Origin: an uncultured Bryobacterales bacterium
Lineage (GTDB): Bacteria; Acidobacteriota; Terriglobia; Bryobacterales; UBA6623
DNA: 64,000 bases
Direction: 5' to 3'
Assembly (NCBI GenBank): GCA_958295955.1
Contig: OY282420.1
Span: 4,168,435-4,232,434 of the forward strand
This document shows, in pieces, positions 30,602 to 55,575 of the stretch. Within the stretch, counting starts at the first letter, position 1. Each line of letters begins with the position of its first letter. A program made the position numbers and the translations under genes. Under the pieces are notes generated by a model, which was not told the DNA's origin, did not search any database, and saw nothing but the letters and a program-made list of their open reading frames with translations.

Positions 30602-30739
30602 ATGGCGCCGGCCGCGAGTCCGGCGACGCTATCTTTAGCATAGCGCGGCGCCGCCGGGTCGGCGAAAGATAGTTGACAATGGGAAAATCACGCGCCGGCG
30701 CCACGAGGCTACCCGGTGCGCTGCCGGACGATCTTTACG

Positions 30740-33700
30740 ATGAACGACGAAAGCATACGCAACGAGATCAAGGCCGCGCTGGCGGCCGGCCCCGGCGGCG
30801 ATTTTACGCAGCAGGGATGCAATCTGTTGACGGCCCTGGGCTATCGCAGCGAGCGCGCGCCGGACGGGCAGACAGGCGCCGTCGATGAGTTCATCGCAAG
30901 CTTCCCGGCGAAGACCGCGGACATTCAATCGGAGCGCAACTTCCGCGGCGGCGCTCAATCCATGCGTATTCTCTTTCAGGTCACCGATACCGAGATCGCG
31001 GAGGCGGCGCCCAGCACATTGTTCGCTGCCGCCGCTTTCGACTCGGGCAACGCCAAGAGCTTCATCTTCGTTGCCGTCGAACTGAACGGTGAGTCCTATT
31101 CGCGGAGCGAGTACGCCGCATTCGCCCGAGAGATCAACAAACGGCTGCCGATGCCCATTGCGGTCCTGTTCCGCGCCGCCGGCCGTCTCACCCTGGCTTT
31201 CGTGCATCGCCGGGTAAACAGACGCAACCCCGAGCGGGATGTTTTGGGCAGCGTCTCGCTGCTCCGGGAGATCGACCCTGCAACCCCGCACCGCGCCCAT
31301 ATCGACGCGCTGGCCGAGTTGTCGCTGACCAAGCGGCTGCAATGGATGGCAAGCCGCGGCAAGCCGCTCAACTTCGACGGCCTGCTGGACGCTTGGTTGG
31401 ACACGCTGGACACCAGGGAACTCAACCGCAAGTTTTACCGGGATCTGTTCGCCTGGTTCAAGCGCGCCGTCAATGAGGCGACCTTTCCTGCCCGAGTTCC
31501 CCCTGAAGAGCACGTGATCCGCCTCGTCACGCGCTTGTTGTTCGTGTGGTTCATCAAGGAGAAGCGGCTGATTGCCGAAGAACTGTTCGTCGAAAATCGG
31601 ATTCGCCGACTGCTCAACGGCTATGACCGCGACACCGGCGATTCCTACTACCGCGCCGTGCTGCAAAACCTGTTCTTCGCCACCTTGAACACCGAAATCG
31701 ACCGGCGCCGCTTCAGCAAGGCGAACAACGCCGGCCACCGCGACTTTTCCCGCTACCGTTACAAAGACGAAATCGGCGATCCCGACCGTCTGCTGGAGCT
31801 ATTCGCCCGAACGCCCTTCATCAACGGCGGCCTGTTCGATTGTCTTGACAGCTACGAAGCGACCGGCAAGGGCGGTTACCGCATCGACTGCTTTACCGAC
31901 AACCGCAGTCGGCGCAAGCTGCTGTCAATCCCCAACCGCCTGTTTTTTGACGATTCCGCCGACAAGCCGGGGCTGATTACCCTGTTCAACCGCTACAAGT
32001 TCACGGTGGAGGAAAACACGCCGGTTTCGCAGGAAGTCGCCCTGGACCCGGAATTGCTCGGCAACGTGTTCGAGAATCTGCTGGCTGCCTACAACCCCGA
32101 AACCCGCGAAACGGCCCGCAAGCAGACCGGTTCCTACTACACCCCGCGCCCGGTGGTGGATTACATGGCGGACGAGGCGCTGACGGCAGCGCTGGCGAGG
32201 CGGTGCAAGCCCACGGATAGCGACGATGAGTTTTGGCGCGAGCGCCTGCGTTATCTGCTGGATTACAACGACGCCGGGGAACTGTTCGACCCGAACGAAA
32301 CGGAAGCCGTGGTCCGGGCGGTCGCCAAGCTGCGGGTGCTGGATCCGGCCGTCGGCTCCGGCGCATTTCCAATGAGCGTGCTGCGCAAGCTCACGTTGGC
32401 TCTGCGCCGCCTCGACCCCGATAACGAGCTTTGGAAGGAATTGCAGCGCGAGCAAGCCCGCCGCCGAGCGGATGAGGCGTTTGGCGCCGACGACCGGGCG
32501 GAGCGTGAAAGACAGCTTGCCGCAATCAGCAGCAACTTCGAACGCTATCGCGACTCCGACTTCGGGCGCAAGCTGTACCTTATCCAGAACACCATCTACG
32601 GCGTGGACATCCAGCCCATCGCCTGCCAGATCGCCAAGCTGCGCTTTTTCATCACGCTGGCTATCGAGCAGGAACCCGATCCCGCCGCCCCCAATTTCGG
32701 CATCAAGCCGCTACCCAACCTCGAAACCCGCTTCGTCGCGGCGAATACGCTGCTCGGCCTGGACAAGCCCGTCCAATCGACCCTGGGGCAAGCCGATGCG
32801 GTCATCAAGCAACTGGAACAACAGTTGAAAGAAAACCGCGAGCGGCATTTTCACGTCAACGACCGTCAGAAAAAGCTGGAGTGCCGCAAGAAGGACAGGG
32901 AACTGCGGGCTGCACTGGCCGCGGAGTTGAAAACGGGCGGCCTGCCCGCCGGGACCGCCGAAAAAGTCGCCCACTGGAACCCCTACGATCAGAACTCCAA
33001 AGCCGACTGGTTCGATGCCGAGTACATGTTCGGCGTAACCCACGGCTTCGATGCGGTCATCGGCAACCCGCCGTATGTCAAGGTCGAGCATCTTAACGAT
33101 GCGACACGCAAGCAACTTCGCAGGAAGTTCGCATGGCTGGGCGATTTGTACGAACATTTTATTTCCCGGGGTCTGCAACTTACTTCTGAGAACGGCGTGT
33201 TCTCGTACATCGCCAACGATAGTTACGTCGCGCTCTCGAGCAAGCAAAGAATTCGGGAGTTGATGCTGGAGAATCAACTTCTCCATCTCGTCAGAGCTCC
33301 GTCCCAAACATTCGATGCGTCGATATACGCAGCCATCTTTGTTCTTGCCAAGAGACGACCGGCCGCTTCGCACGCTTATATGAGCGGCGAGCTGAACGCC
33401 GCGCAGAATTTCGAGCACCGAAAGCTGGGCAAAATAGAATATGCCACAGTGCATAGACTGCCCAACAAAAAATTCCTGCTTTCAGGAGAAAGCAATCTGC
33501 TGAAGCGCCTGCTGTCGCTCGGCAAAATCAAAGACTACTGCCGCGTGCTGGATACCGGCATTCATTCCGGGAACGTCAGGAGTAAAATTTTCTTTGCCGA
33601 AGACAACGGATGCAGAGAGCGTTTGCTGCAAGGGAAGCAAATTCAAAGATTTTCACTGCAATGGGAAGCTCCCAAAGCGCGGTACAAGTTCTGCGATATC

Positions 33701-34237
33701 AATTACCGACCGCTGCCGATACCCGGAATCGGCCGCGGCGGAAGGCCGAGCAGGAAAAACGAGTATTGGCAGTTCTGTGGCGACATGGCGAACCATCGTC
33801 AGCCGGAGCGGATCCTGATGCGCCAAACCGACGACGACCTGGTTGCGGCTTATCATAGCGAGCAAGAATCCGGGCGCTTCTACACGGACAATACTCTTTT
33901 CACGGTTCTTCCCAACTCCAGAGGCGTCGAACTAAAATACTTCTTGGCGCTATTCAACAGCCGCCTGTTGAACTTTGTCTATCACTCCATTTCACAAGAA
34001 CGGGGCAAAAGCCAAGCGCAAGTAAAAATCAAGAATGTGAATGAACTTCCTGCAGTTGTTCCGGAAGGCAATAAACAAAAGCCTGTCATCCGGCTGGCGG
34101 ACCGCATCCTGCAAGCCAAAGCCGCCGACCCCGCTGCGGACACTGCCGAGTGGGAAGCGGAAATCGACCGGCTGGTCTATGCGCTCTACGACTTGACGGA
34201 GGAAGAGGTTGCGGAGGTGGAGGGCCGGCCAAGTTGA
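30740..34237 (+). CDS. Large Eco57I/type IIG-like restriction-methyltransferase
   Basis: A 1165-residue single-chain restriction-modification candidate. The methylase core is clear: motif X region 'KQTGSYYTPRPVVDYMADE', SAM-binding motif I 'LDPAVGSGAFPMSVL' near residue 533, 'YGVDIQPIACQIAKLRFF', and catalytic NPPY ('AVIGNPPYVKVEHL') near residue 775. The C-terminal third looks like a target recognition region ('ELKYFLALFNSRLLNFVYHS'). The first 450 residues ('MPIAVLFRAAGRLTLAFVHR', 'EEHVIRLVTRLLFVWFIKEK') are typical of large Eco57I-type proteins and should include the nuclease part, but I cannot point to a sure catalytic triad. No separate nuclease or specificity gene is adjacent, which fits type IIG. 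The ATG at 30740 was preferred to a GTG at 30716. Confidence 0.85.
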   Translation: MNDESIRNEIKAALAAGPGGDFTQQGCNLLTALGYRSERAPDGQTGAVDEFIASFPAKTADIQSERNFRGGAQSMRILFQVTDTEIAEAAPSTLFAAAAFDSGNAKSFIFVAVELNGESYSRSEYAAFAREINKRLPMPIAVLFRAAGRLTLAFVHRRVNRRNPERDVLGSVSLLREIDPATPHRAHIDALAELSLTKRLQWMASRGKPLNFDGLLDAWLDTLDTRELNRKFYRDLFAWFKRAVNEATFPARVPPEEHVIRLVTRLLFVWFIKEKRLIAEELFVENRIRRLLNGYDRDTGDSYYRAVLQNLFFATLNTEIDRRRFSKANNAGHRDFSRYRYKDEIGDPDRLLELFARTPFINGGLFDCLDSYEATGKGGYRIDCFTDNRSRRKLLSIPNRLFFDDSADKPGLITLFNRYKFTVEENTPVSQEVALDPELLGNVFENLLAAYNPETRETARKQTGSYYTPRPVVDYMADEALTAALARRCKPTDSDDEFWRERLRYLLDYNDAGELFDPNETEAVVRAVAKLRVLDPAVGSGAFPMSVLRKLTLALRRLDPDNELWKELQREQARRRADEAFGADDRAERERQLAAISSNFERYRDSDFGRKLYLIQNTIYGVDIQPIACQIAKLRFFITLAIEQEPDPAAPNFGIKPLPNLETRFVAANTLLGLDKPVQSTLGQADAVIKQLEQQLKENRERHFHVNDRQKKLECRKKDRELRAALAAELKTGGLPAGTAEKVAHWNPYDQNSKADWFDAEYMFGVTHGFDAVIGNPPYVKVEHLNDATRKQLRRKFAWLGDLYEHFISRGLQLTSENGVFSYIANDSYVALSSKQRIRELMLENQLLHLVRAPSQTFDASIYAAIFVLAKRRPAASHAYMSGELNAAQNFEHRKLGKIEYATVHRLPNKKFLLSGESNLLKRLLSLGKIKDYCRVLDTGIHSGNVRSKIFFAEDNGCRERLLQGKQIQRFSLQWEAPKARYKFCDINYRPLPIPGIGRGGRPSRKNEYWQFCGDMANHRQPERILMRQTDDDLVAAYHSEQESGRFYTDNTLFTVLPNSRGVELKYFLALFNSRLLNFVYHSISQERGKSQAQVKIKNVNELPAVVPEGNKQKPVIRLADRILQAKAADPAADTAEWEAEIDRLVYALYDLTEEEVAEVEGRPS

Positions 34238-34382: not shown

Positions 34383-34961
34383 ATGTCTGTCGATCCCGAA
34401 ATCATCCGCCAAGCGCAAAACGGAGACGAGGCCGCCTTCGGCGCCGTCTTCCGCGCCTACAAGCAGCGCGTGTTCGGCACGGTCTATCGCATGATCGGAC
34501 GCCGCGACGTCGTCGAGGACGTGGGCCAGGATGTCTTTATCCGCCTGCACCAGTCGCTCGGGCAACTGCGCACGGTCGAGGTCTTCGAGACGTGGCTGTA
34601 CCGCCTGACCGTCAATACCGTTTACGATTATCTGCGCAAGGAGCGGCGCCGCTGCGAAATGCCGCTGGCCGACTTGAGCGAAGAGCAGATCCGTCTGGCC
34701 GACAGCGCCGCCGCCGGCAAGGATATGGCGCTTGCGCGGCGCCGGGCGGAGGCGCGCAACTTGTTGCAGTCGCTGTTCGCCAACGTCTCTGAAGAAGACA
34801 GGCGGTTGCTGACGCTGAAGGAAGTCCAGGGACTCACGTTGAAAGAGCTGACGGGCATCTATCGCTCGAATGAGAACGCCTTGAAAGTCCGGCTATTCCG
34901 AGCGCGCAAGCGGATATGCCGGATTCACGCCGAGATGCCGGCGGCGCAAGCCGCGCATTAG
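34383..34961 (+). CDS. ECF-type RNA polymerase sigma factor
   Basis: A 192-residue sigma-70 family factor with region 2 ('AFGAVFRAYKQRVFGTVYRM', 'DVVEDVGQDVFIRLHQSLGQ') and region 4 ('EEDRRLLTLKEVQGLTLKEL', 'NALKVRLFRARKRI'). Such factors redirect RNA polymerase to a small set of promoters in response to a signal. No anti-sigma gene is adjacent: upstream is a restriction gene, downstream a convergent LPS gene. AGGAA lies six bases before the ATG. Its TAG stop (34959-34961) overlaps the TAA stop of the opposite gene. The TTGTAAAG repeats upstream may be its own control site. Confidence 0.92.
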   Translation: MSVDPEIIRQAQNGDEAAFGAVFRAYKQRVFGTVYRMIGRRDVVEDVGQDVFIRLHQSLGQLRTVEVFETWLYRLTVNTVYDYLRKERRRCEMPLADLSEEQIRLADSAAAGKDMALARRRAEARNLLQSLFANVSEEDRRLLTLKEVQGLTLKELTGIYRSNENALKVRLFRARKRICRIHAEMPAAQAAH

Positions 34962-37330
34962 GGCGCCGGGCGCGGGCCGCCGCCTTGCCGGCGGTGCAGC
35001 GCTTCCGCGATGAGCGCCATAAACTCGGCCGGTTTGTCGATTTGCAACTCGATTTCGAGTGCGTACAGCGGCTGCGCGAAGCCGCGCGGCGGGTCGAGAT
35101 TCATCAGGTCTTTGGAGGTGGCGACCCATGCGTCGGCGCGGACCGCGGCCGCTGCCTCCGCGAGGCGCTTGCGGTCGGCGGGGGTGTAGCGGTGGTGGTC
35201 GGGGAAGACGCGCCAGGCGGCGATTTCGTATTCCAGGGCGGTGAGTTGGCGCCGGAAGGCGTCGGGGTTGCCGATCCCGCAAAACGCCAGGACGCGCTTG
35301 CCGCGCAGGCTGTCGAGCGGGAGCTCGCGCCGGTCTTCGGCATGGACGAGGCGCGATGCCGTTGTCCGCGAATGGAAAATCGGCGCGGAAGCGTTCCAAC
35401 GGCGGATTGCGTCCGCGAGGGCGCCGTAGCCGCGTCCGGGTTCGGCGCGGGTGAGCAGAATGACATCGGCGCGCCGCAAGCCGCGCAGGGGCTCGCGCAG
35501 CCGGCCCAGCGGCAGCAGGCAGTCGCCGAGCAACGGCCGGGAGGCGTCGATCAGCAGGATGTCGAGATCGCGGGCCAGACGCAGGTGTTGAAAGCCGTCG
35601 TCAAGCACGAAAGCGTCGGCCTCGGCCAGGAGCCGGGTCCCGACGGCGAAGCGGTCCGCGCCCACGCCGATGACGGCGTGGGGCGCCGTGCGCCGGAAAC
35701 GGGCGGCGAGCAGCGCCGGTTCGTCGCCGATGCTGCGCGGCTCGATCTTCCCGCCGCCGGGGCGGACGATGCGCGCGGCGGCGGGGCGGTCGCGCCCATA
35801 GCCGCGGGTCAGCACGGCGGCATGGATGCCGGCCTCGGCGAGACGTTCGACGAGCCAGGCGGCGGCGGGGGTTTTGCCTACCCCTCCCGCGGTCAGATTG
35901 CCGATGGAGAGCACCGGCGCGGGCAGGCGGCGCGCTTTGCGGACGCCCTTTGCGTAAAGGTAGAGCCGCAGCCTGCTTGCCAGTCCCCACAGCATGGCCG
36001 GAATGCGCAGCGCGAGTTGCCGTCCGCAGCGCGGCGGGCTGCGCGGGAGCGCGCGCTGGAACAGCGTTTCCGCTTCTGCGGCGCCGCGGGCCGACGCGCC
36101 GCGCTTCGACCGGGCGAGACGGAAGGCGTTTTCGCCGACGGCTCTGCGCTCCGCGGGGTCGTCCAGCAGCCGCAGCAGAACCGCGGTCAACTCTTCCACC
36201 GAATCGACTTGCAGCAGTCCGCCGGCCGCCAGCAGATCGTCGGCGATCCGGCGGAAGTTTTGCATCGCCGGCCCGACGATGACGGGCCGCTTGGCCAAGG
36301 CCGGTTCGAGGACGTTGTGGCCGCCCCAGCCGTTGAGCGATCCGCCCATGAAAACGACATCGGCGAGGGGGTACAGGCCGGCGAGCTCGCCCAGGGTATC
36401 GAGCAGCAGAACCGCCGGCAAATCGGGGGGCGCCGCGGCGTCGAGCTTCGAGCGGCGCACGAGCGGCAAGCCGTCGAAGGCGCGCGCCGCTTCGTCGAAG
36501 CGCTGCGGGTGGCGCGGCGCCACGACGAAGAGCGCGCGCCGCCGGCCGGCCGCCGCTGCGCGGAACGTCCGCGCCAGCAATTCCTCCTCGCCTTCGCGGG
36601 TGCTGCCCGCGACCACGACGGGGCCGGGCGCGGCGTTTTGGAAAAACGACGCCAGATCGTCGGCGATACCGGCTTTGGGGGGGGGGAAGTCGTACTTGAC
36701 GTTGCCGCCGACCTGCGTTCTCTCGGGCGGCGCGCCGGCCGCCAGAAATCTTTGCCGGTCGGCTTCGCTTTGCGTCAGGATGGCGCCGGCGCGGCGCAGG
36801 ATCGGCGCGAAGAACGGGCGCAGGCGGGCGTAGCGCGGCGCCGAGCGGTCGGACATGCGTCCGTTCAGCAGCAGCGTTTCCGCGCCGAAGCGCTCGGCCT
36901 GCAGAAAATAGTTGGGCCAGATTTCCGTCTCGACGACGATCAGCAGCCGCGGGCGCAAGGCGCGGAACGCGCGGGCTACGCACCAGGGAAATTCCAGCGG
37001 CGCGGCGAACACGGCGTCGGCCAAGCCGGCGAGCTTTTGCCCGGCGAGCTTGCGCCCGGAGGCGGTGGACGTACTGACGTAAAGCGGCGACGCGGGAAAG
37101 CGTTCGCGCAGCCGGCGCAGCAGCGGAACGGCGGACAAAACTTCGCCGACCGAAACCGCGTGTAACCAGATCGAGTCGGCAGGGGTCTGATTCGTTAGGC
37201 CGCCGAGATAACCGAGCCTCTCCGCGAGATCGCGCCGGGGTTGCCCCTTCGCCCGGCTGCGCAGCAGCCAGTAGGGAACCGCAACCGGCGCGAGCAACGT
37301 GAGAACGAGGTTGTAAAAGAAGAAGAACAA
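34958..37330 (-). CDS. waaA/lpxK: Fused Kdo transferase and lipid A 4'-kinase (WaaA-LpxK)
   Basis: One reading frame encodes two consecutive lipid A enzymes. Residues 1 to about 410 are WaaA (KdtA), which adds Kdo to lipid IVA: 'SIWLHAVSVGEVLSAVPLL', 'VVETEIWPNYF', 'GSLNGWGGHNVLEPAL'. Residues about 430 to 790 are LpxK, which phosphorylates the disaccharide 4' position: 'GNLTAGGVGKTPAAAWLVER' with the P-loop near residue 482, 'LTRGYGRD', 'LDDGFQHLRLARDLDI'. No stop or frameshift separates them. A hydrophobic N-terminal anchor (FFFFYNLVLTLLAPVAVPYW) fits WaaA. The start is unsure: no ATG exists; TTG at 37330 avoids overlap with the divergent gene at 37359, while a TTG at 37453 would overlap it by 95 bases. 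Lpx enzymes act at the inner membrane. Confidence 0.88.
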   Translation of the reverse strand: MFFFFYNLVLTLLAPVAVPYWLLRSRAKGQPRRDLAERLGYLGGLTNQTPADSIWLHAVSVGEVLSAVPLLRRLRERFPASPLYVSTSTASGRKLAGQKLAGLADAVFAAPLEFPWCVARAFRALRPRLLIVVETEIWPNYFLQAERFGAETLLLNGRMSDRSAPRYARLRPFFAPILRRAGAILTQSEADRQRFLAAGAPPERTQVGGNVKYDFPPPKAGIADDLASFFQNAAPGPVVVAGSTREGEEELLARTFRAAAAGRRRALFVVAPRHPQRFDEAARAFDGLPLVRRSKLDAAAPPDLPAVLLLDTLGELAGLYPLADVVFMGGSLNGWGGHNVLEPALAKRPVIVGPAMQNFRRIADDLLAAGGLLQVDSVEELTAVLLRLLDDPAERRAVGENAFRLARSKRGASARGAAEAETLFQRALPRSPPRCGRQLALRIPAMLWGLASRLRLYLYAKGVRKARRLPAPVLSIGNLTAGGVGKTPAAAWLVERLAEAGIHAAVLTRGYGRDRPAAARIVRPGGGKIEPRSIGDEPALLAARFRRTAPHAVIGVGADRFAVGTRLLAEADAFVLDDGFQHLRLARDLDILLIDASRPLLGDCLLPLGRLREPLRGLRRADVILLTRAEPGRGYGALADAIRRWNASAPIFHSRTTASRLVHAEDRRELPLDSLRGKRVLAFCGIGNPDAFRRQLTALEYEIAAWRVFPDHHRYTPADRKRLAEAAAAVRADAWVATSKDLMNLDPPRGFAQPLYALEIELQIDKPAEFMALIAEALHRRQGGGPRPAP

Positions 37331-37358: not shown

Positions 37359-38000
37359 ATGGCAACATCGTTTTTTCGATCTTTCGTAGGGCTGTCTCTG
37401 CTGCTCGGACTGCCGCTCGGGGCTTTTGCGGCGGACGACGGCTTCAAGGCCAAGACGGCGGACCGCTATCCGGGGAAGCAGTCACAGGGCGACCTGATTG
37501 CCGCGGTCAAGCCGTTCTACTCGGAAAAGGATCAAAAGAGAGCGTTCGGCAAGACGCGGCCCTACAAACACGGCGTAATGCCGCTGCTGCTGGTGCTGAC
37601 CAATACCGGACTGCATCCCTACGACCTGAAGAATCTCAAGGTTCGCTTCATCACCGCCGGCCGCGAGGGTCTGGAGCCGATCGGCGGCGAGGACCTGGCT
37701 TATTTCAACCCCAAGGGCCACCAGCCCAGGCAGCGCAACATTCCCGGCATTCCGGCGGGCATTCCCGGGCTGAGCCGAGCGCGCGTGAAGAAGGGGCCGC
37801 TGGCGCGGTTCGAGATCACGGACAGGGAGTTTCGAGCGCCCGTGCTGACTCCCGAGAGCACGGCGGGCGGGTTTTTCTACTATTGGACCGGCACGGAAGA
37901 GCCGTTGGCCGGGGCTTCGGCCTATATTTCCGGCATCGTCGATCTGACTACCGGCCGGGAGTTGTTTTATTTCGAGATTCCGCTCGACCGCTACCGCTGA
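37359..38000 (+). CDS. Secreted protein of unknown function
   Basis: A 213-residue protein I do not recognise. It has a clear signal peptide (FVGLSLLLGLPLGAFAADD) and a mature part with predicted beta structure ('GVMPLLLVLTNTGLHPYDL', 'LARFEITDREFRAP', 'GGFFYYWTGTEEPLAGAS'). The phrase 'LLLVLTNTGLHPYDLKNLKV' resembles the way Ig-like or DUF4352-type domains describe extracellular beta sandwiches, but that is only a resemblance. The start ATG lies 28 bases from the chosen start of waaA-lpxK on the other strand, leaving little promoter space. No Shine-Dalgarno is obvious. Probably periplasmic or outer-membrane associated. Confidence 0.75.
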   Translation: MATSFFRSFVGLSLLLGLPLGAFAADDGFKAKTADRYPGKQSQGDLIAAVKPFYSEKDQKRAFGKTRPYKHGVMPLLLVLTNTGLHPYDLKNLKVRFITAGREGLEPIGGEDLAYFNPKGHQPRQRNIPGIPAGIPGLSRARVKKGPLARFEITDREFRAPVLTPESTAGGFFYYWTGTEEPLAGASAYISGIVDLTTGRELFYFEIPLDRYR

Positions 38001-38176: not shown

Positions 38177-39748
38177 ATGAAAGCGGAAGAATTGGAAGGG
38201 CGGCGGCTGCGCTTGCAGGCCGAGTTGGATGCCGCCAAGGATCAGGCGGAGCGGAATCGGCTGGGTCAGTTCGCGACGCCGACAGGGCTTGCCCGCGACA
38301 TGCTGCGCTATGCCGGGACGCATCTCGGCGAAAGTACGCGCGTTCGTTTCCTCGATCCGGCGATTGGCTCCGGCTCGTTCTATGCGGCGCTGCTGCGCGT
38401 GTTTGCGCAAAGTAAAATAGCCGGCGCCGTCGGCTATGAGATCGACCCGCATTACGGTACGCCGGCGTCCGCATTGTGGGGGCGGACGGGACTGGACGTT
38501 CGTTCGGGAGACTTTACGCGGGCCGCGCCGCCGGCGGAGCGGGAAAAGTTCAACCTGTTGATCTGCAATCCGCCCTATGTGCGGCATCATCACATCGGGG
38601 GCGGCGAGAAGCAGCGGCTCAAGGTTCGAGCGCGGGAAGCCGGCGGTGTCGAAATCAACGGGTTGTCGGGCCTGTATTGCTATTTTCTAACTCTGTGCCA
38701 CGCATGGATGGCGGACGGCGGGTTGGCCGGTTGGCTGATCCCAAGCGAGTTCATGGACGTGAACTACGGCGCGTCGGTGAAGCGCTATCTGCTCGACAAG
38801 GTTACGCTGCTGCGCATTCACCGGTTCAACCCGAACGAGGTGCAGTTCGGCGATGCGCTTGTGTCGTCGGCCGTCGTCTGGTTCCGCAAGGAAAAACCGC
38901 CGCGGGATTACGAAGCCCGGTTTACCTACGGCGGCTCGTTGCAGCAGCCGGAGCTCGACCGAGCGATGCCGGCCGCGGCGCTGCGCCGGACTGCGAAATG
39001 GACAAGATATCCGGCCAAGGCCGACCATGAAGCGGCGGATGCTCCGCTTCTGGGCGATCTCTTCACGATCAAGCGCGGCCTGGTGACGGGCAGCAACGAC
39101 TTTTTCATTCTGCCGGCCGAAGAAATCGAGCGCCGCGGGCTGCCGATGGAGTGGTTCCGACCGATTTTGCCCAGCCCGCGTTATCTGCCCGCAAACGAGG
39201 CGCCGGCCGACGGCAAGGGGAACCCCGTGCTGGAGCGGCGCCTGTTCCTGTTGGATTGCCGTTTGAAAGAAGACGAGATCGAGCGCCGGCATCCGCGACT
39301 GTGGGCCTATCTTGAGGAAGGGAAGGCGCGGGGCGTAGCCGAACGGTATCTCTGCCGGCATAGGACGCCGTGGTACGCGCCCGAAAACCGGGCGCCGGCG
39401 CCGTTCCTGTGTACCTACCTCGGGCGCGGAGACAAGAAAAACGGGAAGCCGTTCCGCTTCATTCTCAACGACTCGCAAGCAACGGCCGCGAATGTTTACT
39501 TGATGCTCTACCCGAAGCCGCCGCTCGCTCGCGTTTTGCAAGGGAATCCGCATCTGAAAAGGCAGGTCTGGGCGCTCCTGAACGCTATATCCCCGGCGGC
39601 GATGCTGGGCGAGGGAAGGGTTTACGGCGGCGGGCTGCACAAGCTGGAGCCGCGGGAGTTGGGCAACGTTCCCGCGGCGGCGATTGCGGAATTGCTGCCG
39701 GGGGCGCGGCCGCGGCGGGCAGAGCAGGGAGAACTGTTCGCCGCGTAG
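38177..39748 (+). CDS. Solitary gamma-class DNA adenine methyltransferase (TaqI/Eco57I-like)
   Basis: A 523-residue N6-adenine methylase with motifs in the gamma order: GQFATP at 30-35 (motif X), 'LDPAIGSGSFYAALL' at 59-73 (motif I) and catalytic NPPY near residue 130 ('LICNPPYVRHHHIGGG'). The C-terminal half ('GDLFTIKRGLVTGSNDFFIL', 'FLCTYLGRGDKKNGKPFRFI') is a recognition region; the tail ends 'EQGELFAA' as in many Eco57I/PstI-type methylases. Such enzymes usually sit beside a nuclease gene, but the next gene (39811, opposite strand) is an esterase and the previous one a secreted protein, so this is an orphan or has lost its partner. The upstream gap (38001-38176) holds a short TAATCCCA repeat and nothing else I can name. 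Confidence 0.87.
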   Translation: MKAEELEGRRLRLQAELDAAKDQAERNRLGQFATPTGLARDMLRYAGTHLGESTRVRFLDPAIGSGSFYAALLRVFAQSKIAGAVGYEIDPHYGTPASALWGRTGLDVRSGDFTRAAPPAEREKFNLLICNPPYVRHHHIGGGEKQRLKVRAREAGGVEINGLSGLYCYFLTLCHAWMADGGLAGWLIPSEFMDVNYGASVKRYLLDKVTLLRIHRFNPNEVQFGDALVSSAVVWFRKEKPPRDYEARFTYGGSLQQPELDRAMPAAALRRTAKWTRYPAKADHEAADAPLLGDLFTIKRGLVTGSNDFFILPAEEIERRGLPMEWFRPILPSPRYLPANEAPADGKGNPVLERRLFLLDCRLKEDEIERRHPRLWAYLEEGKARGVAERYLCRHRTPWYAPENRAPAPFLCTYLGRGDKKNGKPFRFILNDSQATAANVYLMLYPKPPLARVLQGNPHLKRQVWALLNAISPAAMLGEGRVYGGGLHKLEPRELGNVPAAAIAELLPGARPRRAEQGELFAA

Positions 39749-54657: not shown

Positions 54658-55575
54658 TCAGTAAACGGGCTTTTCGCCGGGCGGGCGCGTCTTCCAGCGG
54701 CGATGAATCCAAAGCCACTGTTCCGGATGCTTGCGCACGGCCGCTTCGACAACCGCCTGGCAACGGCGCGTATTTTCCACGACGTCCGCTTCGTCGTCTC
54801 CCGTTGCGGCCATCTCCACAGCGGGATAATACTGCAGGACATAACGCGATTCGAGGGAGTTCCAGCAGGCGAAACCCGGAACGACCGCCGCGCCGGAGCG
54901 CATGGCGAGTTGTGCGAACCCCTTGTTGGCCGCCGCGGGCTTGCCGAAGAAATCGACGAATACCGCTTCCGCTGCGGCCGTATTCTGATCGATCAGAATG
55001 CCCACGGCCTCGTTGTTGCGCAGGGCCTGGAGCACCGCTCGGGCGGAGCTTGCTTTGGGCACGATCTTGTTGCCGGAGGCGGTGCGGCTGTTGGCGACGA
55101 TGCGCTCGATCACGGGGTCTGCGATGGGGCGCGCCATGACGTGGATCGGGCCTACTGCAAGGCCGTGGGCAAGCGCCGAAAGCTCCCAATTGCCGAGATG
55201 CGCCGTCAGAAAGAGCACGCCTTTCCCTCGTTTTTGGGCATTCGTAAAGTGATGCAGGTCTTTGAAGACGATCCAGCGGGGCAGGTCCTCGCGCTTGAGC
55301 GTTTCGGCCCGCGCGATCGTCAGCAGGATGCGCCCCAGGCTTCTGAACATCGCGCGGCGAATACGGGTTCTTGCTTGCCGGTCCATCTCCGGGAAGGCGA
55401 TGGTCAGATTGCGGTCTGCGACTGCCGGCCACTTGGGCGCCAGAGCGCCGGCCGCCGCGCCCAGCCATTCCGCCGGTGTTAAAGCCGGCGCATACGGCAG
55501 CTTGCGCAACGCTGCGAGCGCGGCATGGAAAGCCATGCGCAGAGCAGATCTCTTGATGCTGGAGCGGATGGTCAC
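54658..55575 (-). CDS. lpxL: Lipid A acyltransferase (LpxL/HtrB family)
   Basis: Adds the secondary acyl chain to Kdo-lipid A at the inner membrane. The 305-residue protein has the H-x4-E catalytic motif in 'LTAHLGNWELSALA', the 'GILIDQNTAAAEAVFVDFFG' block and the C-terminal 'WLWIHRRWKTRPPGE' typical of LpxL/LpxM. Length is normal. The start is GTG at 55575 (MTIRSS). Immediately upstream a short frame (GTGGATAGCAAAACT...) derived from the dispersed repeat ends with a TGA that overlaps this GTG, so it may act as a leader. With waaA-lpxK at 34958 it shows a full lipid A pathway in this organism. The paired transporter genes begin 85 bases away, divergently. Confidence 0.92.
   Translation of the reverse strand: MTIRSSIKRSALRMAFHAALAALRKLPYAPALTPAEWLGAAAGALAPKWPAVADRNLTIAFPEMDRQARTRIRRAMFRSLGRILLTIARAETLKREDLPRWIVFKDLHHFTNAQKRGKGVLFLTAHLGNWELSALAHGLAVGPIHVMARPIADPVIERIVANSRTASGNKIVPKASSARAVLQALRNNEAVGILIDQNTAAAEAVFVDFFGKPAAANKGFAQLAMRSGAAVVPGFACWNSLESRYVLQYYPAVEMAATGDDEADVVENTRRCQAVVEAAVRKHPEQWLWIHRRWKTRPPGEKPVY

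Follow-up and report, generated by a model that had tools for sequence, protein, structure and literature searches.

The Kdo transferase WaaA (KdtA) and the lipid A 4'-kinase LpxK are encoded as a single fused gene in an uncultured member of the Bryobacterales, and this fusion is genuine, inherited by the lineage, old and widely kept. Bryobacterales is an order of soil bacteria, and waaA and lpxK specify two successive reactions in making the lipid A of the outer membrane. The gene lies in a 64,000-nucleotide stretch of contig OY282420.1 (hereafter the window). We consider it very probable that the fusion goes back to a single ancestral stop loss and that it yields one membrane-associated bifunctional enzyme, acting first as a kinase and then as a Kdo transferase.

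Reading the open reading frames of the window, we found that the minus strand holds a single 790-codon frame without a stop (Table 1). An initial annotation of this DNA had given the correct interval while leaving the strand unstated, and the plus-strand reading of the interval does not encode the protein. The furthest in-frame TTG, at position 37453, produces a mechanical minus-strand ORF of 831 codons. The TTG at 37330 is matched in an exact alignment by a TTG in 11 of 18 fused relatives, several of which have an in-frame stop 5–7 codons upstream of the aligned TTG. Because of these aligned TTGs and the nearby upstream stops, 790 residues is the likely length of the fusion protein and is preferred to 831 codons. 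The nearest relatives (L004–L013) retain this TTG start. In some of them an ATAATAC-like stretch precedes it by about 20 bases and no clear ribosome-binding site is seen, and the fusion mRNA is possibly leaderless or nearly leaderless.

We assessed the conservation of the fusion in related genomes. Of the nearest 21 genomes, the window's own included, 19 have a match and all 19 matches run in one frame across the junction; the two genomes with no match are 74% and 64% complete. We sampled 120 genomes of the order and obtained a match in 118; that in G015 (64% complete) is only a weak fragment, leaving 117 usable genomes. A single frame spans the junction in 116 of these, single-contig genomes among them. 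The frame carries both domains over at least 700 codons in 113 of the 116; in the other three (G504, G462 and G496) the match is partial, lying at a contig end or close to one, yet it spans the junction. In the 117th genome (G435) an assembly gap between two contig ends coincides with the junction. In-frame stops flagged in four genomes (G016, G438, G433 and G492) lie at the C-terminal end of frames of 780–806 codons. The 19 aligned order members are 41–52% identical to the window protein, and no fission was seen in the order sample. The search of the Acidobacteriota that the initial annotation had proposed thus recovers the fusion throughout the Bryobacterales, and its suggestion that all close relatives might have separate genes does not hold. 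Its guess at the phylum, Acidobacteriota, is supported.

These data bear directly on whether the fusion is an artefact, with two genes seemingly joined because a base error conceals the intervening stop and start. In much of the phylum waaA and lpxK abut or share a 4-base overlap, such that one indel would join them, and an error of this kind is still a live worry for two isolated cases (L062 and L146) considered below. However, the presence of the fusion in 116 of 117 usable genomes, including single-contig assemblies, makes this explanation extremely unlikely for the order as a whole. Because close relatives are also fused, there is no base error in the window, and the error near residue 415 that had been raised as a concern is not needed to account for the frame.

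Our view beyond the phylum comes solely from a scan of named genomes. Among the best 80 of 588 candidate loci, 12 are fused, 38 have a separate lpxK downstream of waaA, one has the reversed order and for 29 the retrieved sequence contains no lpxK. The fused loci come from Bryobacterales bacteria, one Candidatus Solibacter, several Acidobacteria, and records titled Acidimicrobiia and Nevskia. Since the fused named rows are intermixed with the order genomes in our tree, we infer that the sampled order is the Bryobacterales, within the Acidobacteriota. The fused record titled Acidimicrobiia (L055) sits inside the Bryobacterales clade, and a fused record titled Nevskia soli (L064) is not in the tree; the titles or bins of both are probably wrong.

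Profile searches identify both domains in the uninterrupted frame, as originally annotated, and support the gene names waaA and lpxK. The Pfam LpxK model (PF02606) matches with E=4.5e-81 (272.9 bits against a cut-off of 27) and Glycos_transf_N (PF04413) with E=3.2e-57 (193.4 bits against 23.9); a weak match to Glycos_transf_1 lies between the two. Among NCBIfam models, TIGR00682 (lpxK) scores 194.7 bits against a cut-off of 91.95 over residues 487–813 of the 831-codon ORF, and the WaaA match covers residues 45–461 of the same ORF. Five NCBIfam models for WaaA align along the greater part of their length, all scoring below their equivalog cut-offs (best 314.3 bits against 438). On these scores the WaaA half is outside the five narrow equivalog subfamilies and still within the WaaA family as a whole.

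The low equivalog scores could also reflect a lost or changed activity in one half of the protein, such as a WaaA that uses another sugar or an LpxK that uses another lipid. We mapped functional residues by aligning the window protein to the Aquifex aeolicus structures 4ehx (LpxK) and 2xci (WaaA). The WaaA chain in the alignment is presumably numbered 21 above the published residues, an offset with which these match the expected letters. The LpxK residues K51, D99, E100, D138, D139 and H261 correspond to K486, D536, E537, D577, D578 and H712, and the WaaA residues G30, E31, E98, K162, R212, N273 and E276 correspond to G62, E63, E134, K212, R273, N339 and E342. Every one of these positions is invariant in 19 of 19 fused proteins; the roles of the residues are reviewed in the available text of PMC6286764. 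With the mapped catalytic and CMP-Kdo- or ATP-contacting residues unchanged, and with KdsB encoded in the genome, an altered activity is very unlikely.

A structure model of the fusion (mean pLDDT 87.5, pTM 0.81) begins with a helix (residues 2–27), continues through the two WaaA Rossmann halves, which end in a helix (412–426), and enters LpxK through a further helix (435–460). Compared with known structures, the LpxK half of the model has a TMt of 0.88 to 4ehy and the WaaA half a TMt of 0.79 to 2xci. The membrane elements of both halves are predicted to be retained; one of them, the LpxK amphipathic helix, is required for activity according to the available text of PMC6286764. Because the two modelled helices bracket the junction, the linker amounts to about 8 residues, which are proline-rich.

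This architecture raises the question of whether one gene could give two proteins, either by cleavage of the chain near the junction or by additional synthesis of LpxK from an internal start. The junction is short and proline-rich, LpxK retains its entire native N-terminal helix, and in some of the 19 aligned rows a Shine-Dalgarno-like stretch accompanies an in-frame start close to the junction. Against this, no start codon with a Shine-Dalgarno-like sequence at the junction is conserved over the 19 fused sequences, leaving no conserved candidate for an internal lpxK start, and the window's own junction has no start backed by such a sequence. The length of the junction also varies little among fused sequences. 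We consider the production of two proteins improbable.

A search of the window's genome found no second lpxK or waaA. Besides KdsB, LpxC and two LpxB homologues, the genome encodes a lipid A acyltransferase; the surrounding pathway is therefore present. The LpxB homologues are at G000:C1:596672-597706 and, on a second contig, at G000:C2:59827-60879. Restriction-modification-like genes flank the fusion (Table 1), an arrangement that suggests that a small defence cluster surrounds the fusion gene. A Thoeris-like pair lies about 5 kb from it.

Table 1. Positions in the window of the fusion gene, its parts and neighbouring genes
Feature	Position	Strand	Basis or remark
waaA-lpxK fusion gene, 790 aa	34958..37330	(-)	TTG start 37330, stop 34958-34960
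WaaA (KdtA) Kdo transferase part, residues 1-427, GT-B fold	36050..37330	(-)	profiles, 2xci, 4bfc
WaaA N-terminal helix, model residues 2-27, probable membrane anchor	37250..37327	(-)	model, hydrophobic sequence
E63, equivalent to A. aeolicus WaaA E31, proposed catalytic base	37142..37144	(-)	invariant 19/19
Junction between WaaA helix 412-426 and LpxK helix 435-460	36029..36049	(-)	model, alignment
LpxK tetraacyldisaccharide 4'-kinase part, residues 435-790	34961..36028	(-)	profiles, 4ehx
LpxK N-terminal helix 435-460, counterpart of A. aeolicus LpxK amphipathic membrane helix	35951..36028	(-)	alignment, model
P-loop GGVGKT, residues 482-487; K486 equivalent to A. aeolicus K51	35870..35887	(-)	alignment
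Walker B D577-D578, equivalent to D138-D139	35597..35602	(-)	alignment
D536, equivalent to D99, partner of H712	35723-35725	(-)	alignment
H712, equivalent to H261, catalytic base	35195..35197	(-)	alignment
Lipid A acyltransferase, later pathway step	54658-55575	(-)	PF03279, 212 bits; ~17 kb from fusion
ECF-type sigma factor gene, converges on fusion	34383-34961	(+)	gene ends overlap by 4 bases
ThsA macro-domain protein, Thoeris-like anti-phage pair	28972-29988	(-)	PF20016, 170 bits
ThsB TIR-like protein, Thoeris-like anti-phage pair	29898-30431	(-)	PF08937; PADLOC ThsB 256 bits
Type IIG restriction enzyme-methyltransferase-like protein, flanks fusion	30716-34237	(+)	
Eco57I-type methyltransferase, flanks fusion	38177-39748	(+)	

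We investigated how often the fusion has arisen using a phylum sample of 396 genomes and a tree of 92 waaA–lpxK pairs, from which the incomplete fused locus L064 was left out. Among the matches listed for the phylum sample, in which fused ones rank first, only the three Bryobacterales included and one further genome (G298, locus L146) cross the junction without a stop. At least 22 other phylum genomes have a single match that crosses both genes with a stop between them, and these were checked as separate. In the tree, 29 of 29 Bryobacterales rows form one clade with support of 100, which places the origin of the order's fusion on one branch. The fused locus L062 adjoins a separate pair (L089) among Acidobacteriaceae-like rows, and L146 occupies a third place. 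The starred branches of the tree force three state changes; such changes do not separate gain from loss, but unfused genes are much the more frequent state. In an AU test of 11 fused and 23 separate rows chosen from the 92, a single clade of all fused rows was rejected (p-AU 0.0001), and likewise when L146 was removed (p=0.002). The fusions of L062 and L146 thus appear independent of that in the order, on the strength of draft data. The record title of the L062 contig gives a coverage of 3.27, and L062 has one extra base between the hits compared with its sister L089; this fusion is possibly a sequence error. L146 is a single draft genome. In family f45, 12 genomes that are at least 90% complete have no match to the fused WaaA–LpxK profile among the matches listed, and another genome of the family (G283) has matches. 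Perhaps this lineage has lost Kdo-lipid A.

In other lineages waaA and lpxK are adjacent but separate (30 of 30 loci, L022–L051). Lineages with separate pairs include Acidobacteriaceae, Candidatus Acidiferrales, Geobacter and Omnitrophota. Two of the 38 separate pairs from the named genomes (L079 and L096) are at least several hundred bases apart. Of 93 separate pairs, in which some genomes are counted twice, 46 have the nearest possible lpxK start 4 bases inside the waaA stop. The available text of Opiyo et al. 2010 (PMC3087551) describes waaA–lpxK as an often-found gene cluster of consecutive steps. The initial annotation had described the two as normally separate genes, a description that passes over how commonly they form an adjacent pair with waaA first. 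It had also rightly pointed out that the later enzyme is N-terminal in the fusion. As judged from the sequences of relatives, this seemingly reversed domain order is the ancestral gene order. Because waaA then lpxK was already a common gene pair, the N-terminal place of the later enzyme needs no functional reason. Long LpxK frames of 678–821 codons in families f21, f44, f59 and f68 were considered as further fusions and rejected; their phase differs from that of waaA, the genes are separate and the long frame is an open-frame by-product.

The correspondence between domain order and gene order would also fit a neutral by-product of operon compaction, in which the two activities are co-expressed without channelling. 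This is a rival to channelling and not to the fusion itself. Such fusions should arise easily, since at least 22 pairs elsewhere share one frame and have hardly more than a stop codon between the two genes. On the other hand, the fusion has been kept in 116 of 117 genomes of a diverse order with no fission seen, a pattern that fits selection against splitting and is no proof of it. We regard a neutral origin as a serious possibility.

We propose the following account for the Bryobacterales gene. In an ancestral waaA–lpxK pair the waaA stop would have overlapped or touched the lpxK start, and this stop would have been lost in frame with lpxK, once, before the order diversified. The product would be one membrane-associated bifunctional enzyme, whose C-terminal LpxK half would convert the lipid A disaccharide to lipid IVA by phosphorylating its 4' position and whose N-terminal WaaA half would then transfer Kdo from CMP-Kdo onto lipid IVA. 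The kinase is placed first because LpxK is inactive on substrates that already carry Kdo and the E. coli WaaA prefers a 4'-phosphorylated acceptor (both from the available text of PMC6286764). The benefit would be a fixed 1:1 dosage and co-localisation of the two activities, and local hand-over of lipid IVA would be possible. Equal dosage and co-localisation follow from the fusion, provided that the chain is uncut. The analysis shows the open frame, both folds, the catalytic residues, the sole copies, the conservation across the order and the separate pair elsewhere; we infer that one polypeptide is made and kept, that each half has its activity, and that dosage and co-localisation are the benefit. 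Channelling of lipid IVA is possible and compatible with the data, as is mere equal dosage with co-localisation. We are more doubtful about a stronger version of events, in which the kinase half of a single Bryobacterales membrane enzyme passes lipid IVA straight to the Kdo transferase half and the fusion arose at least three times in the Acidobacteriota from an overlapping pair. If this were true, it would point to repeated selection for coupling the LpxK and WaaA steps.

We found no account of a WaaA–LpxK fusion in searches of an open-access library that lacks most subscription papers. In the available text of PMC4412817, 'gene fusion' refers to an LpxK–GFP construct and not to waaA–lpxK, and the only fusion mentioned in that of PMC3087551 is lpxC/fabZ. 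The waaA–lpxK fusion may be listed automatically in protein-architecture databases. What appears to be new here is the fusion; the two enzymes, their gene order and the fusion of neighbouring pathway genes (lpxC/fabZ, in the available text of PMC3087551) were known. The fusion provides a natural, order-wide case of two consecutive lipid A enzymes that are covalently joined, and it makes LpxK/WaaA channelling and fixed stoichiometry testable with one purified protein and half-specific point mutants. The fusion also cleanly marks the order Bryobacterales, and relatives that retain the 4-base overlap show directly how it originated from the gene order.

The closest structural references for the fusion are the A. 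aeolicus LpxK (4ehx, 4ehy) and WaaA (2xci, 2xcu), which have the same folds and catalytic residues as its two halves but, unlike the fusion, are separate single-function proteins. The known waaA–lpxK cluster, as described in the available text of PMC3087551, consists of two genes in the order seen in the fusion, whereas here there is one gene. A related precedent is the fused lpxC/fabZ gene of Bacteroidetes, Chlorobi and Verrucomicrobia reported in the same text, likewise a fusion of neighbouring lipid A genes that has been kept over large lineages. However, LpxC and FabZ, unlike LpxK and WaaA, do not act consecutively on one intermediate.
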